A stretch of DNA of 64,000 nt from Lacinutrix sp. (GCF_029238095.1 NZ_JAQWGS010000024.1:78568-142567); one strand, 5' to 3'; counted from the first letter of the stretch, positions 51,954 through 59,345 are shown. Translations and numbers: made by a program. Notes: generated by a model from the letters alone, not told the origin.

Positions 51954-54365
51954 TTATCTCAATTTTGGAAAATCAACAGGATTTGCTTCGTGCATAACAG
52001 CATATATAGCTTCATAAATATCTTCTGCAGATGGTTTGGAGAAATAGTCTCCATCTGTTCCATAAGCAGGTCTATGTGCTTTAGCTGTAACTGTTTTTGG
52101 CGCACTATCTAGATGTTGGTAACCGTTTTGTTTGTTTAATATTTGGTCTAATAAATAGGCTGAAGCTCCTCCTGGAACATCTTCATCTATAATCATTAAA
52201 CGATTGGTTTTTGCTAAACTTTTTACAACATCATGGTTTAAATCGAAAGGTAATAATGATTGTGCATCTATAACTTCTGCATCGATACCAACTTGTATTA
52301 ATTCTTTAGCAACGTCTTGTACAATTCTTAAGGTAGAACCGTAAGACACTATAGTAATATCGTTTCCTTCTTTTACAGTTTCTACAACACCAATAGGTGT
52401 TTTAAAAGCGCCAAAGTTAGTTGGTTTTGGTTCTTTTAAACGATACCCATTTAAACATTCCACAACCAAAGCAGGTTCGTCGCTTTCTAATAAAGTATTA
52501 TAAAAACCAGCAGCTTTAGTCATGTTTCTTGGAACCAAAACATGAATACCACGTATAAGGTTTAAAACGCCACCCATTTGTGAACCAGAATGCCAAATAC
52601 CTTCTAGTCTGTGACCACGAGTTCTTACAATTAATGGTGCTTTTTGACGGCCTTTTGTTCTGTAATGTAAAGTTGCTAGATCATCGCTCATTATTTGAAG
52701 TGCATACATGATATAATCTAAATACTGAATCTCAGCAATAGGTTTTAAACCTCGCATTGCCATACCAATACCTTGACCAATAATTGTAGCTTCACGAATT
52801 CCAGCATCTGCAACGCGTAACTCGCCATATTTTTCTTGTAATCCTTCTAATCCTTGATTTACATCTCCAATATTTCCAGCGTCTTCACCAAAAATTAAAG
52901 CTTCGGGATATTTACTAAAAATAGCATCAAAATTATCCCTTAAAATAACACGACCATCAACCTCTTCTTTATTGGGATTGAAAACAGGACTTACTTCTTC
53001 GACATGTTTTGCAGCAGTTTCAGTTTCATTATGTAAATGCGAACTGTATTTTGGCTGCACAACACTAAAGTAAGTGTCTATCCATTGTAATAATTTTGTT
53101 TTAGCAGAAGAATTTTCAGTAACTACATATCTTAAAACACGTCTAGCTGCAGATATTACATCTTTTCGAGCAGGTTCTACAATGGCTAACATGTCATTAT
53201 TTATTTTCTCTATAAATTCTCTGTTTGCACTTGCTGTAGCAACTTCTGTTATTAAAGATGAAGCTTCTTTACGTTCAGCTATAATAGGATTTAGGTAAGC
53301 ATTCCAAGCGGCTTTTTTTCCCTCTCGAACCGCTTTTTTGATTTCTTTCTCTTTAGTAGATAATTCTTCGTCTGTAGAAATTCCAGTTTCTATCATCCAC
53401 TCACGTAATTTTACATTACAATCTGTTTTTGCTTCCCATTCTAAACGTTCTTTATCTTTATAACGTTCGTGAGAACCAGAAGTAGAGTGGCCTTGTGGTT
53501 GTGTTAATTCGTTTACATGCACTAAAACAGGCACATGCTCTGTTCTAGCAATTTTTGCAGCTTCTTGGTAGGTTTCAATAAGTGACACATAATCCCAACC
53601 TTTAACACGTAGAATTTCGTAGCCATTATTATTTTCATCACGTTGGAAGCCACTTAAAATTTCAGAGATGTTTTCTTTTGTTGTTTGATGTCTTGCGTGA
53701 ACAGAAATGCCGTATTCGTCATCCCAAACACTTATTACCATTGGTACTTGTAATACACCAGCTGCATTTATAGTTTCGAAAAAGAGACCTTCACTTGTAC
53801 TAGCATTACCTATGGTTCCCCAAGCAATTTCGTTTCCTTTTTCAGAAAAGTTTGTAGTATCTATACCTTTTACATTTCTGTAAATTTTAGAGGCTTGAGC
53901 TAAACCTAACAATCTTGGCATTTGCCCAGCAGTAGGCGAAATATCTGAACTTGAATTTTTTTGTTTTGTTAAATTATTCCAATTTCCATTTTCATCTAAA
54001 CTAAATGTAGAGAAGTGTCCACCCATTTGGCGACCTCCTGACATTGGTTCTAATTTTATGTCTGTATTGGCATATAAACCTGCAAAAAATGTTTCGATGT
54101 TTAGTTCTCCAATAGCCATCATAAAGGTTTGGTCTCTGTAATAACCAGATCTAAAATCTCCATTAGCAAAGGCTTTTGCCCATGCTAATTGTGGTACTTC
54201 TTTTCCGTCACCAAAAATACCAAACTTGGCTTTTCCTGTTAAGACCTCGCGACGTCCAAGTAAGCTACATTCTCGACTTGTAACAGCAATTTTATAATCT
54301 TCAATAACTTGCGCTTTAAAATCGCTAAAGGATAACTCTTTTTTTAAGTCGGAATTTAAACTCAT
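51954..54365 (-). CDS. Fused alpha/beta E1 component of a branched-chain-type 2-oxoacid dehydrogenase
   Basis: TPP-dependent decarboxylase of 803 residues in which the E1 alpha and beta chains are one polypeptide, the Bacteroidota form. Alpha half (about 1-370): PMSGGRQMGGHFS, AWGTIGNASTSEGLFFETINAA (TPP/Mg site), VISVWDDEYGISV, HVNELTQPQGHSTSGSHERYKD. Beta half (about 475-800): VILRDNFDAIFSKYPEALIFGEDAGNIGDVNQGLEGLQ, DAGIREATIIGQGIGMAMRGLKPI, IQYLDYIMYALQIMSDDLATL, LVPRNMTKAAGFYNTLL. Probable substrate: 2-oxoisovalerate or related branched-chain oxoacids; E2/E3 are not in the window. ATG 54365 is chosen over the track start for its distance to the promoter (TTG-N20-TAAATTTG). Confidence 0.93.
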   Translation of the reverse strand: MSLNSDLKKELSFSDFKAQVIEDYKIAVTSRECSLLGRREVLTGKAKFGIFGDGKEVPQLAWAKAFANGDFRSGYYRDQTFMMAIGELNIETFFAGLYANTDIKLEPMSGGRQMGGHFSTFSLDENGNWNNLTKQKNSSSDISPTAGQMPRLLGLAQASKIYRNVKGIDTTNFSEKGNEIAWGTIGNASTSEGLFFETINAAGVLQVPMVISVWDDEYGISVHARHQTTKENISEILSGFQRDENNNGYEILRVKGWDYVSLIETYQEAAKIARTEHVPVLVHVNELTQPQGHSTSGSHERYKDKERLEWEAKTDCNVKLREWMIETGISTDEELSTKEKEIKKAVREGKKAAWNAYLNPIIAERKEASSLITEVATASANREFIEKINNDMLAIVEPARKDVISAARRVLRYVVTENSSAKTKLLQWIDTYFSVVQPKYSSHLHNETETAAKHVEEVSPVFNPNKEEVDGRVILRDNFDAIFSKYPEALIFGEDAGNIGDVNQGLEGLQEKYGELRVADAGIREATIIGQGIGMAMRGLKPIAEIQYLDYIMYALQIMSDDLATLHYRTKGRQKAPLIVRTRGHRLEGIWHSGSQMGGVLNLIRGIHVLVPRNMTKAAGFYNTLLESDEPALVVECLNGYRLKEPKPTNFGAFKTPIGVVETVKEGNDITIVSYGSTLRIVQDVAKELIQVGIDAEVIDAQSLLPFDLNHDVVKSLAKTNRLMIIDEDVPGGASAYLLDQILNKQNGYQHLDSAPKTVTAKAHRPAYGTDGDYFSKPSAEDIYEAIYAVMHEANPVDFPKLR

Positions 54366-54383
54366 AGTCGTTTGTTTGAAGTA

Positions 54384-54414
54384 CAAATTTAGATAATAAA
54401 AGTGATTTTAGCAA
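54384..54414 (-). promoter_or_regulatory. Promoter of the E1 gene (TTG-N20-TAAATTTG)
   Basis: On the minus strand TTG (54414-54412), 20 bases, TAAATTTG (54391-54384), then 18 bases to ATG 54365. This is a full match to the Bacteroidota consensus and rules out the upstream track start at 54386, which would lie inside the promoter. Confidence 0.75.
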
Positions 54415-54524: not shown

Positions 54525-57362
54525 TTAATACCATCTTCTTGTAAATAATGAGAGTAATGTTTTAGGAGATAATGTCACAATAAAACGAATGCTTTGGTCA
54601 TAATTAGGTTGTGCAATTTCCCATCCTAGATTAGAATATACAGGAAGATAGAGTTCAAAATAGTCTTCTACTAAATTTAGACGAATACCTGCATCGTAAA
54701 CAAATTTTGGATTTCTATGATGGTTTTTTACCATACCAACATCGCCATAGGCCATAATGTAACGCCAAATAGTTGTACTTGAATTGGCTGTTGTAATCCA
54801 TTGGTTTGCAAAAGCTGGTTCTAATTGCGATTTAAAACCACCTTCTGAAACAATTAATTGCTGACTCAATACTCCTGCTTCTTCAGAACGACCTAAATAA
54901 TCGTAATCGAATAAGTAATCTGTTGGTCTATCTAGAGCAAAACTGAAGAAGTTTGTAGTTTCGTAGGTTTTGTTGTATAAAAACGAACCTGCAAATAAGC
55001 GTAAGTTGTATTGCCTGTTACCTTCTGTAAGTTTTCTAAATTCTGCTGTTGCAGAGATCTTTCCAAAATTTTTAGCCAACTGTAGGTCTGTGTCCCAGTA
55101 ACTAAAGTTTTTTAAATTAGGATCGCTTTTTCCATATTTTATGTTAAGTACGCTGTATTTAGGTTCGCCATCTGTTTCAAACTCTCCAGTAATATCGACT
55201 TCTCTATCTATGTTTACATATCTTAAGTTTAAATAACTTCTTTTATTATCTCTTAAATTATCTGGATCTCTAAATCTAAAGTCAATATAAGGCGTGTAAG
55301 AAGTGTAAGATAGGTTAGGAGCATAGTTGTAATACTCTCCACCAATGCCATATTTAGTGTAAAAATTTCTAGAATTCTCCTTTCTATCAGCAAAACTAAT
55401 TGAAGCGCTACCAACTAATTGCTTACTTTTAATAGCATATTTTGGACTAATGCGGTAAAGAAAATTTTTAGTTAAAATAGTCTTATTGTACAATTTTATT
55501 CCAGGTGAAAAACCATCGTAAAAATTATAAGCAAACTCTGGCATAAAAAATACCTGGCTATAATTTGGGTCTTCTATGTCTTTAAATAACCTAAACTGTA
55601 ATGGTTTGTTGTTAGATAAAAAACCACCTAAAGATTTCCAGTTGTTTCTTAAATTCATTTCTGGAATGGTAGTATCGTAATTAAGGGCTAATTTATCAGC
55701 ATCATTATTAGCAATGGTGATTTTTTTATAGCCTTTAAAGCCTTCTATCCATTGTTTAGATAAAACACTATCGTCTTTAATTGTAAATAAAGAGACAGGC
55801 ATTAAATGGTCTTTTTTGTTTTTAATGGTAATGGTTAGGGAGTCTTCAGTTTTTTCAACTTTTTTAATTTTAAAGTCAATTTTCATACTACTTCCTACAT
55901 AATCTTCAAAAAACCAATCTATATTCTTATCTGTCTTTTCTGTAATATAATTTTTAAACGCTTCAGAATTTGTAGTTTTTAATTTATTTTCTTTTAGAAA
56001 CTGTGTTAGCATAACATCCATTGCATTATTTTCCATGTATTGATCTAAGTAATTTAAACCAACTCCTGCTTTGTATTTGTTTGCAATATTTTTATTGAAT
56101 TTAAGAAGCGAATCTTTAGGCATATTTAATGGTTGATCTAAATTAGAACGTGCCATATGCATATATAAAAAGTTATACTGATCGTTGAATTTTAAGTCTG
56201 CAGCATGAAAAGCACGAACTCCCCAAATATTGGCAAGATTTCCAAGAATTTTCATGTCTGGATAGTTCTCTTCAACGTATTTCATTAAATAATAGGTTTG
56301 AATACCATCTATAATCCATTGGTCTTCTCTAGGATTTATGAGTACTGTGTTTTCAAGATAATTAAGTAATGTGGTTTTAAGTATTTTTAATTCGTATTGA
56401 AAAGTATCTGAAAACGGACGCACAAAGTCTGGTAATAAGTTTAGACCATAAATAGGATTTTTTTTGTAGTCTATTTTAGTAAGTAGTACTTTTTTATGTG
56501 GATAATCGCCTAGGTTTTCTGTTATAAATCGAGCAACTTTGTCTGTTATTACTGCAATTTCTTCTGGTTTTAAGTTTTCTTCATCGATATTAGACTCTAC
56601 AGTGAAATAGTCTGTTTCAACCGTTTTGTAGGTATCTCTTTTATTTAGAAATAATTTAGAGTTTACACGGTTATTGCCTTTTAGTTGTGTTGTTTTAGTT
56701 CCGTTTCCATTAATATCTTCAGTGTAAACTTCATCTAATTCACTTATTAAAGTGAATGTGTATGGATAATTTACTTTTAAATTAATATCTGCTTTTGGAA
56801 CATAAGCATCATCTAAATTTTTATTACTAAAGTAATGCCATTCACCATCAAAATATGCTGGAGTTATATACCAATACCTTAAATTATAATCGCCTTCGTT
56901 TGTTAAACCATAACGTGTAAATTTATCGTTTGGAACACGAACAATATAATTAAGTTTAAGTGTGTAGCTTTCATTAGGTTGTATTTTTTGTCTTAAAGCT
57001 ACTTTAATAATATCTGGATTGTTTGTTACTCTTGTGTAATTTGTTTCAGTATCATTTTCTTTAATAGAATTAATAATAGTAAATCCTCGATCTTGTTCTT
57101 TAGCGAAATGAAAGGTGTTTTTAAACTCATCTGCAAATCGCTCTGCTAAAGGCGTGTCTTTTTCTGAATAACTATGACTCCAATCTGTTAAGTAAATATA
57201 ATCTATAGCAGTATTAGAGGTGTTTAAATATTCTATTGTTTGTTCTATACTAATGCTTTTGTTTTCGACATCGAAAGTAGCATTAATGTTAAGTTTGTTT
57301 TGGCTTGATGCCGAAAAACAAACGAATAGACACAAAATAAATGAAGTGAATTTTAGATTCAA
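54525..57362 (-). CDS. M1-peptidase-like protein lacking the zinc site, fused to an outer-membrane beta-barrel (TTG start)
   Basis: 945-residue exported protein. Signal peptide MNLKFTSFILCLFVCFSASS|Q. Residues about 25-560 follow the plan of the M1 aminopeptidase N- and catalytic domains (LRYWYITPAYFDGEWHYFSNKNLDDAYVPKADI, YKKNPIYGLNLLPDFVRPFS, then DQWIIDGIQTYYLMKYV at the position of the E-containing helix). The HExxH zinc helix is replaced by a sequence without His, so peptidase activity is unlikely. The C-terminal third (about 600-945) is a repeated beta-strand pattern of a membrane barrel ending in RRWY. It starts at TTG, overlapping the stop of the EEP gene by TTGA, so it is coupled to that gene. 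Role unknown. Confidence 0.82.
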   Translation of the reverse strand: MNLKFTSFILCLFVCFSASSQNKLNINATFDVENKSISIEQTIEYLNTSNTAIDYIYLTDWSHSYSEKDTPLAERFADEFKNTFHFAKEQDRGFTIINSIKENDTETNYTRVTNNPDIIKVALRQKIQPNESYTLKLNYIVRVPNDKFTRYGLTNEGDYNLRYWYITPAYFDGEWHYFSNKNLDDAYVPKADINLKVNYPYTFTLISELDEVYTEDINGNGTKTTQLKGNNRVNSKLFLNKRDTYKTVETDYFTVESNIDEENLKPEEIAVITDKVARFITENLGDYPHKKVLLTKIDYKKNPIYGLNLLPDFVRPFSDTFQYELKILKTTLLNYLENTVLINPREDQWIIDGIQTYYLMKYVEENYPDMKILGNLANIWGVRAFHAADLKFNDQYNFLYMHMARSNLDQPLNMPKDSLLKFNKNIANKYKAGVGLNYLDQYMENNAMDVMLTQFLKENKLKTTNSEAFKNYITEKTDKNIDWFFEDYVGSSMKIDFKIKKVEKTEDSLTITIKNKKDHLMPVSLFTIKDDSVLSKQWIEGFKGYKKITIANNDADKLALNYDTTIPEMNLRNNWKSLGGFLSNNKPLQFRLFKDIEDPNYSQVFFMPEFAYNFYDGFSPGIKLYNKTILTKNFLYRISPKYAIKSKQLVGSASISFADRKENSRNFYTKYGIGGEYYNYAPNLSYTSYTPYIDFRFRDPDNLRDNKRSYLNLRYVNIDREVDITGEFETDGEPKYSVLNIKYGKSDPNLKNFSYWDTDLQLAKNFGKISATAEFRKLTEGNRQYNLRLFAGSFLYNKTYETTNFFSFALDRPTDYLFDYDYLGRSEEAGVLSQQLIVSEGGFKSQLEPAFANQWITTANSSTTIWRYIMAYGDVGMVKNHHRNPKFVYDAGIRLNLVEDYFELYLPVYSNLGWEIAQPNYDQSIRFIVTLSPKTLLSLFTRRWY

Positions 57363-58633
57363 TTGACTTTTACAAATTTTAAAGGTTTAACATTTACACC
57401 ATTTAGTACAACATAATACATTCCGTTTGAATATGAAGAAGTATTAATAATTAATTCTTCATTGTCTTTTATAGAAATTACATCTATGGTTTGCCCAATG
57501 GTATTAGATATACTTACGTAATTAGAAAAAGTTGGTTTTCTGTTTGCTTTAATTTTAAGCTGGTTGTTAACAATATTTGTTCCTAATATTTTAAAGGTTA
57601 TTTCACTTTCTGTAAATTCATTAACATTTAAAAGGCTTTCTGTAGTTGTGATATTTATAGTAACGGGAAGATGATCGCTAAAATTGTGTAGTGCATTTCT
57701 AATGGCAAAACTATAATCTGTCCCATCACAATCTGTAGAATTAATAGCACTATTATAACAATTAATATTTGAATTGTTTCCAAATACTTTATAACTACCA
57801 TTTTCGAATTGCAATTCTGGATTATTTTGCATGTTATCTGAGGTTAGAATAAAATCAAAACGATCATCAAAGCCTCCAGCAGCACCTCCTAACGAAGTTG
57901 TGGTTCTGGTAGATTGTGTAAATACATCTACATAACTAGTGTTATTATGCCAACTGCCAATACGGTTTGCAGGATCTATAAAAGTAATGTTGTTATTGGT
58001 GTTTAAAAATTCTTGAAAACCTGCTTCACTAGATGTGTAAAAATTAAAATCGCCTCCAAATAACACATATTCTGAACTTGAAAAGGTATCTAAATATGTA
58101 GTTAAATCTTGAGCCATTTGAAAGCGTAGCGCTTGATTATCTGTTCCACTAGAAGCTTTTAAATGTCCAACGATTACATTTAATAGAATTGGATTTGTTA
58201 CCTGATTAACTGTGTTAAGCTTTAAAATATAGTGATTAAAATCTCTATAAATGGTTGTTACTTCTGTTTGAGATTCTAAGTTAAATTTAGAACTGTCGTA
58301 ATATATTAGGTTTTGTAAATCGTTTTGGTCGCTTATGGTATCGTCTGATGTGTTTAATACAAAATTTGCCATTTCGTAATTAACATTAATACTTTGCTTC
58401 ATCATATTTAATATGGTAGTAGCTCCACTAACATTATTAAGTTCGCAAACCATAAATAAATCGGGTTGATAATGAGATAAAACAGTCTCTAACTCATTTA
58501 ACCTTGAGGCAGCAGGCTCTTGCAAAGGAAAGTTAAGCAAGTTATAAAACATAGCTTTAAACGTTTCTTGAGCAAAAGAAATATTGCAACTTAAGGCAAT
58601 AAAAAACAGAATTATGGACAATTTACTTTTCAT
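57359..58633 (-). CDS. Secreted endonuclease/exonuclease/phosphatase (EEP) family protein with T9SS domain
   Basis: 424 residues. Signal peptide MKSKLSIILFFIALSCNISFA|Q; the EEP domain (about 25-320) shows AMFYNLLNFPLQEPAASRLNELETVLSHYQPDLFMVCELNN (Mg-binding Glu), VLFGGDFNFYTSS, FDDRFDFILTSDNM and the His of FSDHLPVTI. A C-terminal type A sorting domain (VISIKDNEELIINTSSYSNGMYYVVL, KPLKFVKVN) targets it to type IX secretion. Probably a surface DNase, phosphatase or sphingomyelinase-like hydrolase; DNase is a reasonable guess. Its stop overlaps the TTG start of the M1-like barrel gene. Confidence 0.9.
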   Translation of the reverse strand: MKSKLSIILFFIALSCNISFAQETFKAMFYNLLNFPLQEPAASRLNELETVLSHYQPDLFMVCELNNVSGATTILNMMKQSINVNYEMANFVLNTSDDTISDQNDLQNLIYYDSSKFNLESQTEVTTIYRDFNHYILKLNTVNQVTNPILLNVIVGHLKASSGTDNQALRFQMAQDLTTYLDTFSSSEYVLFGGDFNFYTSSEAGFQEFLNTNNNITFIDPANRIGSWHNNTSYVDVFTQSTRTTTSLGGAAGGFDDRFDFILTSDNMQNNPELQFENGSYKVFGNNSNINCYNSAINSTDCDGTDYSFAIRNALHNFSDHLPVTINITTTESLLNVNEFTESEITFKILGTNIVNNQLKIKANRKPTFSNYVSISNTIGQTIDVISIKDNEELIINTSSYSNGMYYVVLNGVNVKPLKFVKVN

Positions 58634-58655: not shown

Positions 58656-59345
58656 TTAGAAATTAGGACTTAAGCCATATTCTTTATAGAAAGAATCTAA
58701 GATATTTACAACTTCTTCTTCTGTATCTACTAAATGAATTAAATCTATATCTCCAGGACTTACATTGCTAAACTTATCTAACATTGTTTCTTTTATCCAA
58801 TCCATTAATCCAGACCAAAAATCTGTACCTACTAGAATGATTGGGAATTTTTCTATTTTATTGGTTTGAATCAAAGTAATGGCTTCAAATAATTCGTCTA
58901 AAGTTCCAAATCCTCCTGGCATAACTACAAAACCTTGAGAGTATTTTACAAACATTACCTTTCTAACAAAGAAATAGTCGAAATCTAAGCTTTTATCATT
59001 ATCTATATAAGGATTGTCGTGTTGCTCGAAAGGTAAGTCTATATTTAATCCTACCGAAGTTCCTCCAGCCAAATGTGCACCTTTATTTCCAGCTTCCATT
59101 ATACCAGGACCACCACCTGTAATAACACCATAACCAGCTTCGCAAATGCTTTTTGCAACGCTTTCTGCTAGTTTGTAATATATATGGTCTGGTTTTGTTC
59201 TTGCAGAACCAAAAATAGAGACACATGGTCCTATTTGACTCATTTTTTCAAATCCGTTAACAAACTCTCCCATAATCTTGAAGATTGCCCAGGAATCGTT
59301 TGTTTTATTTTCATTCCAACCTTTGTGGTGATGTTCTTCTCTCAT
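58656..59345 (-). CDS. LOG family Rossmann-fold protein (TIGR00730)
   Basis: 229 residues. LOG family (cytokinin riboside 5'-monophosphate phosphoribohydrolase-like nucleosidase): SIFGSARTKPDHIYYKLAE, GVITGGGPGIMEAGNKGAHLAGG, GLNIDLPFEQHDNPYID, and the characteristic VVMPGGFGTLDELFEAITLIQTNKI (PGGxGTxxE). In bacteria these enzymes hydrolyse AMP or related nucleotides to free the base, usually a housekeeping role. Cytosolic. It lies 30 bases downstream of uvrA and 22 upstream of the EEP gene, in the same operon run. Confidence 0.92.
   Translation of the reverse strand: MREEHHHKGWNENKTNDSWAIFKIMGEFVNGFEKMSQIGPCVSIFGSARTKPDHIYYKLAESVAKSICEAGYGVITGGGPGIMEAGNKGAHLAGGTSVGLNIDLPFEQHDNPYIDNDKSLDFDYFFVRKVMFVKYSQGFVVMPGGFGTLDELFEAITLIQTNKIEKFPIILVGTDFWSGLMDWIKETMLDKFSNVSPGDIDLIHLVDTEEEVVNILDSFYKEYGLSPNF

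Follow-up and report, generated by a model that had tools for sequence, protein, structure and literature searches.

A predicted M1-fold pseudopeptidase joined to an Omp85-like barrel in Flavobacteriaceae, with a possible role in outer-membrane biogenesis

What does a peptidase fold without its zinc site do on an outer-membrane barrel, beside the gene of a secreted enzyme? The question is raised by two overlapping genes in a 64,000-nucleotide stretch of DNA (hereafter the window; Lacinutrix sp., NZ_JAQWGS010000024.1:78568-142567), part of a 2.3-Mb draft genome of a member of the Flavobacteriaceae close to Lacinutrix. One gene encodes a 945-residue protein, here called the M1-barrel protein, and the other an enzyme of the endonuclease/exonuclease/phosphatase (EEP) family. 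The outer membrane of Bacteroidota is built by remodelled machinery, parts of which are still being discovered. Our analysis suggests that the M1-barrel protein probably helps to build or police this membrane, and that service to the secreted enzyme next to it is not its main role. The architecture is well supported by prediction, and we infer a periplasmic side for the M1-like domain, a role in outer-membrane biogenesis and the holding of substrates. The gene and the parts of its product are as follows:

54525..57362, minus strand: gene for the M1-like/Omp85-like outer-membrane protein, 945 residues, TTG start (sequence, AlphaFold2 model)
57300..57362, minus strand: signal peptide, approximately residues 1-21, Q21 nearly invariant, without a lipobox (sequence, alignment)
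55638..57299, minus strand: M1-fold domains, residues 22-575, predicted periplasmic (AlphaFold2, Foldseek against the PDB)
56430..56450, minus strand: YGLNLLP, residues 305-311, replacing the GxMEN exopeptidase motif
56307..56378, minus strand: dead zinc site, residues 329-352, with K329, T330, L333 and D352 for H, E, H and E (alignment)
54573..55565, minus strand: Omp85-like barrel, approximately residues 600-930, 16 strands counted (models, fold search, profile comparison)
54813..54947, minus strand: long conserved loop between strands 11 and 12, residues 806-850, at the position of Omp85 loop 6, with invariant D815, Y816, R825, G841 and G842
54735..54743, minus strand: D874-x-G876 in strand 13, in the register of the Omp85 xDxG motif (alignment)
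54528..54566, minus strand: C-terminal helix, residues 933-945, R942 and W944 conserved (alignment, model)

The M1 fold was recovered from a full-length AlphaFold2 model built from 42 orthologues (predicted local distance difference test score, pLDDT, 84.4; predicted template modelling score, pTM, 0.84). All 50 matches listed in a Foldseek search of this model against the PDB were M1 aminopeptidases of the ERAP/IRAP type, and the best match of the M1 part was IRAP (E 1.6e-19). The Pfam family PF01433 (Peptidase_M1) scored the window protein at 15.5 bits, under its cut-off of 27.7, with a match covering residues 339-488, and reached E<=0.01 in 19 of 42 orthologues; active relatives exceeded the cut-off, at 49-63 bits. 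The protein is thus a member of M1 by the fold of its predicted model, and not by its catalytic motifs or the Pfam cut-off.

The catalytic site itself has been replaced throughout. Active relatives from other Bacteroidia families (~1000 residues, same architecture) keep HEVGHNWFYGILGSNERxHPWMDEG, to which residues 329-352 of the window protein align without a gap as KTTLLNYLENTVLINPREDQWIIDG. In this alignment the first zinc-binding His corresponds to K329 (invariant across the 42 family orthologues), the catalytic Glu to T330, the second His to L333 and the third ligand, Glu, to D352. HExxH was present in none of the 103 family members aligned, the window protein having KTTLL there, and the exopeptidase motif, GGMEYP in active relatives, reads YGLNLLP. 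An alternative zinc site in the 945-residue protein was also considered and rejected: across the whole protein, neither His nor Cys reaches 90% conservation in any column of the 42-sequence alignment, a result that speaks against a conserved site elsewhere. Y305, G306, L310, P311, K329 and W349 are invariant in the family, and this conserved cleft with new residues suggests a retained binding function. Retention of peptidase activity by means of a different metal site or mechanism seems extremely improbable, given that zinc ligands, general base and GxMEN are all replaced and no such His or Cys is conserved; we found nothing in its favour.

To place the loss of catalysis, we used a tree of 103 proteins built after removal of the active-site columns. 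A single branch, one change on the tree, splits the active from the dead members (Shimodaira–Hasegawa-like approximate likelihood-ratio support 99). On the dead side stand the Flavobacteriaceae, a further five families of this order (f2, f64, f65, f68 and f73) and a single protein of an f76 draft genome; on the active side stand the order lineages f66, f67, f72 and f75, a second f76 genome and every class-level relative included. Since the zinc site is ancestral to M1, the change on this branch is most simply one loss; on this reading catalysis disappeared once, in part of the Flavobacteriales. The dead-type protein of the f76 draft genome (L157, G346) stands in a family otherwise of the active type (L193), and horizontal transfer and contamination are candidate readings of it. 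When a profile built from active members was searched more widely, long matches also appeared in another class (f78).

The barrel was modelled as ~16 strands within residues 602-929, followed by the C-terminal helix, with a conserved loop of 55 residues after strand 11; a model of the barrel alone had a pLDDT of 74.5. When this barrel was searched against the PDB, the 50 matches listed all belonged to the Omp85 superfamily (TamA, Sam50, BamA, FhaC or like), the best being TamA of P. aeruginosa (E 2.8e-7). A profile of 202 family barrels was compared with BamA, TamL and TamA barrels, restricted to the query's columns, and this version, which was picked after the results of two others were known, scored 38.9 locally and 31.4 globally. 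Controls with 60 block-shuffled queries reached at most 24.3 local and 15.9 global, a reversed query gave 15.9 and 2.9, and other Bacteroidota barrels scored 23.8 and 3.0 (FadL) or 26.9 and 12.6 (PorP/SprF). The register of the alignment sets YGDVG, with the invariant D874, on the Omp85 strand-13 FxDAG. The canonical form of the loop-6 motif [VI]RG[FY] is absent; invariant R825 and G841-G842 (GGF) lie in the long loop, which is at the expected place. Active and dead members share, among other conserved parts, the loop-6 region and the D-x-G strand. On these models and profiles, the barrel appears to resemble those of the Omp85 superfamily.

In a count from the strand list of the model, the longest three loops come after strands 7, 11 and 15 and thus all lie on the face of the barrel away from the N-terminal domain. 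The usual rule for such barrels then puts the M1-like domain in the periplasm, where it should lie unless it is threaded outside as proposed for PlpD. The model contains no POTRA domain, residues 490-575 forming strands without helices, and POTRA is not obligatory across the Omp85 superfamily (PMC4104836).

A first-pass annotation, made from sequence alone, had anticipated much of this architecture. Its 945-residue protein, its coordinates and its overlap of the two genes, which measures four bases, were exact; its M1 layout was borne out by AlphaFold2 and Foldseek, and its missing HExxH by the alignment to active relatives, which extended the loss to every zinc ligand. Its outer-membrane barrel agrees with the predicted model, and the 42 orthologues gave no sign of the alternative zinc site that it had named as a counter-argument. 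In place of the aromatic C-terminal strand that it described, the model ends in a helix after the last strand, and its "surface protein" fits poorly with an M1-like domain predicted to be periplasmic. The observation was therefore confirmed and the interpretation partly supported.

The gene neighbours of the active relatives offer an indication of function. The active M1-barrel gene lies directly upstream of an LpxH-like gene in 25 of 34 genomes at class level, spread over 14 families (a manual tally over neighbourhood listings). The gene lpxH belongs to lipid A synthesis. The LpxH-like products are ~250 residues long and match the NCBIfam LpxH model at E 1.8e-20 to 1.9e-28, under its equivalog cut-off, and PDB matches of two examples were all LpxH. 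Active M1-barrel genes are commonly preceded by a DUF4369-thioredoxin (TlpA-like) gene, and in several order-level lineages an upstream neighbour is a PspC-family gene. The LpxH-like, TlpA-like and PspC neighbours point to envelope biogenesis and homeostasis. The order TlpA-like thioredoxin, M1-barrel, LpxH-like recurs in many Bacteroidia families (L203-L217, L121-L145). In some Flavobacteriales families, a PspC-domain gene lies immediately or a short way upstream of the M1-barrel gene (L185, L198, L201, L184), preceded in the first three loci by a small gene of ~125 codons.

Our leading explanation, which we hold tentatively and at a little under an even chance, is that the M1-barrel protein is a factor for biogenesis or quality control of the outer membrane that has become a pseudopeptidase, with a periplasmic M1-fold domain fused to a ~16-strand Omp85-like barrel that lacks POTRA. 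In the ancestral active form, a zinc peptidase would have been anchored where the barrel opens to the periplasm. This form would have been expressed together with lipid A synthesis and would probably have served the assembly and quality control of outer-membrane components. Catalysis would then have been lost once, in the ancestor of most Flavobacteriales, with the cleft kept and given new fixed residues (YGLNQLP, K329). The present protein would most likely bind or hold substrates without cutting them, as a chaperone, scaffold or insertase, so that the dead version may retain the holding function alone. Slightly more tentatively still, these proteins may form an unrecognised subfamily of the Omp85 superfamily, widespread in Bacteroidia, in which an M1 peptidase replaces POTRA: an assembly factor or one linked to lipopolysaccharide, once made a pseudoprotease and core in Flavobacteriales.

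Several results weigh against this explanation, and some speak for a channel of unrelated origin, one that might take up peptides or nutrients across the outer membrane and whose likeness to Omp85 is generic barrel similarity. Template modelling (TM) scores of the barrel against Omp85 structures were moderate, mostly 0.4-0.5, and Pfam Omp85 (PF01103) gave no match to the window protein; both favour such a channel, as does the absence of [VI]RG[FY] as such. Active members alone gave weaker profile scores (28.7 local and 21.2 global, against 26.8 and 3.6 for PorP), and two earlier comparisons were less clear, with no signal from a shallow profile and a weak signal from a deeper profile with default columns. 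Given the moderate TM-scores, the weak or null profile versions and the missing Pfam match, we term the barrel Omp85-like and do not regard it as a proven Omp85 member. Beyond the barrel, the lpxH linkage occurs in active relatives only, the neighbours in the window's family being LOG and dehydrogenase genes; we found no experiment or literature on the M1-barrel protein in the open-licence literature searched, and the F. johnsoniae subunits of the β-barrel assembly machinery (BAM) named in PMC12611786 do not include it. We nevertheless consider an unrelated channel unlikely, since the 50 fold matches listed were Omp85-superfamily entries only and the FadL and PorP controls scored far lower over the whole barrel.

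The Omp85 likeness might instead indicate secretion of the type Vd kind, in which the barrel exports its own M1-like domain to the surface as a displayed or released pseudopeptidase. The order of passenger and then Omp85-type barrel is that of PlpD (PMC4104836), and the fold match of the barrel agrees with it. With no POTRA domain, no cleavage site seen and ~550 folded residues that would need to cross the barrel, we judge this unlikely.

The remaining alternative, close to that of the first-pass annotation, makes the M1-barrel protein a dedicated partner of the EEP enzyme, itself taken to be secreted by the type IX secretion system (T9SS): the M1-barrel protein would receive, anchor or deliver a substrate for this enzyme or would help to export the enzyme. 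The genes that bear on this reading are:

57359..58633, minus strand: gene for the EEP-family enzyme, an optional partner, with intact catalytic residues and a T9SS-type C-terminal tail
57359..57362, minus strand: TTGA overlap of the EEP stop and the M1-Omp85 start
58656..59345, minus strand: LOG-family gene, conserved upstream neighbour
51954..54386, minus strand: fused 2-oxoacid dehydrogenase E1 gene (product assigned from sequence), conserved downstream neighbour

The first-pass annotation rightly noted the overlapping gene of an EEP enzyme with signs of T9SS export. The catalytic set of this enzyme (N31, E64, H157, D195, N197, D260, D320 and H321) is invariant in 17 orthologues, PF03372 matches it at E 2e-4, just under its cut-off, and a candidate T9SS type A sorting tail stands in the right place at sub-threshold scores (PF18962, 20.7 bits against a cut-off of 27; TIGR04183, 16.2 against 23). 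C63, C292 and C302 are also invariant among the orthologues, and the latter two, which are close together, possibly form a disulfide, as expected of an exported enzyme.

The order uvrA-LOG-[EEP]-M1barrel-2-oxoacid dehydrogenase is conserved in the window's family, and the enzyme is tied to it: full-length EEP occurs in 37 of 151 family genomes, directly upstream of the M1-barrel gene in 36 and at no other locus. The divergences of the two proteins correlate (r 0.90), and TTGA overlaps are found in 15 of 22 EEP-bearing loci, down to ~38% identity. The M1-barrel protein, however, is found in 147 of the 151 genomes (mostly as one copy, with a few weak or partial matches among them), so that ~110 carry it without EEP, and several Lacinutrix relatives have decayed EEP remnants with stops upstream of an intact M1-barrel gene. 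The 37th EEP gene lies in a draft genome that has uvrA, LOG, EEP and dehydrogenase genes and no M1-barrel gene (L221, G090:C145, 6190-6400), through either a deletion or an assembly fault. EEP presence requires 11 changes on the family tree, which, together with the correlation, is as expected for joint inheritance with repeated EEP loss; the overlap too may reflect mere joint inheritance. The four-base overlap was therefore rejected as proof of coupling, the TTG start being usual among family orthologues also where EEP is absent: the overlap reported in the first-pass annotation is exact, and the TTG start is not in itself a sign of coupling. The survey of neighbourhoods upholds the pairing in one direction. 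Because EEP is always at the M1-barrel locus the link is real but one-sided; the M1-barrel gene is a core gene, to whose locus EEP is tied and not the reverse. With the M1 domain also predicted to be periplasmic, a dedicated EEP partner, and with it a receptor or chaperone for the EEP substrate, is in our estimation quite improbable.

Remnants of EEP between the LOG and M1-barrel genes, most with in-frame stops, are at varied stages of decay (L036, L037, L038 and L052), and shorter traces occur at L040 and L047. A TTG start kept in most family members is unusual for a core gene, and it may limit M1-barrel expression.

Neither the protein nor its profile matched any sequence in the PDB, so by sequence the protein has no detectable relative of solved structure, for instance among known BAM subunits. 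A survey of Omp85 proteins recognised ten subfamilies, including some with patatin and PF00149 ("Metallo") N-terminal domains, and makes no mention of a peptidase M1 fusion (PMC4104836). Nor is a protein of the M1-barrel type mentioned in the passages searched of the F. johnsoniae BAM (PMC12611786) and TamL (PMC12045153) papers; the gluzincin elastase FP0506 is a different protein, a 296-residue lipoprotein. We thus found no prior description of an M1-Omp85 fusion in the open-licence literature, an absence that is no proof of novelty.

Compared with known systems, residues 22-575 share with the M1 aminopeptidases ERAP1/2 and IRAP the fold and the spacing of the two zinc helices, and differ in lacking the zinc ligands, general base and GxMEN and in being fused to a barrel. 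With Omp85 and TpsB proteins (BamA, TamA, Sam50, FhaC) the M1-barrel protein has in common a predicted barrel of ~16 strands, a long conserved 11-12 loop and the strand-13 D-x-G; it differs in its N-terminal M1-fold domain and in having no POTRA, no [VI]RG[FY] as such and no Pfam Omp85 match. The architecture falls outside the ten Omp85 subfamilies of PMC4104836, among which PlpD and the "Metallo" proteins likewise place an enzyme-type domain before the barrel, though theirs is a patatin or PF00149 domain, not M1, and they are not described as dead enzymes. BepA, a periplasmic M48 metallopeptidase of E. coli, acts at the BAM complex, where it promotes the assembly of LptD and also breaks down LptD that has stalled (PMC8423444); the likeness is one of working principle only, chaperone-like and protease functions combined at BAM, since BepA is M48 and not M1, has no barrel fusion and is catalytically active. 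The M1-barrel protein, if our explanation is true, would offer a natural test of which function is dispensable in a protease-barrel fusion, catalysis having gone and barrel and cleft having been retained. It would also be an additional candidate part of the Bacteroidota outer-membrane machinery, a core protein comparable with F. johnsoniae BamG, BamH, BamM and BamP, which serve outer-membrane biogenesis and are not part of the canonical set known from E. coli (PMC12611786), BamG being, unlike the M1-barrel protein, a FadL-type barrel.

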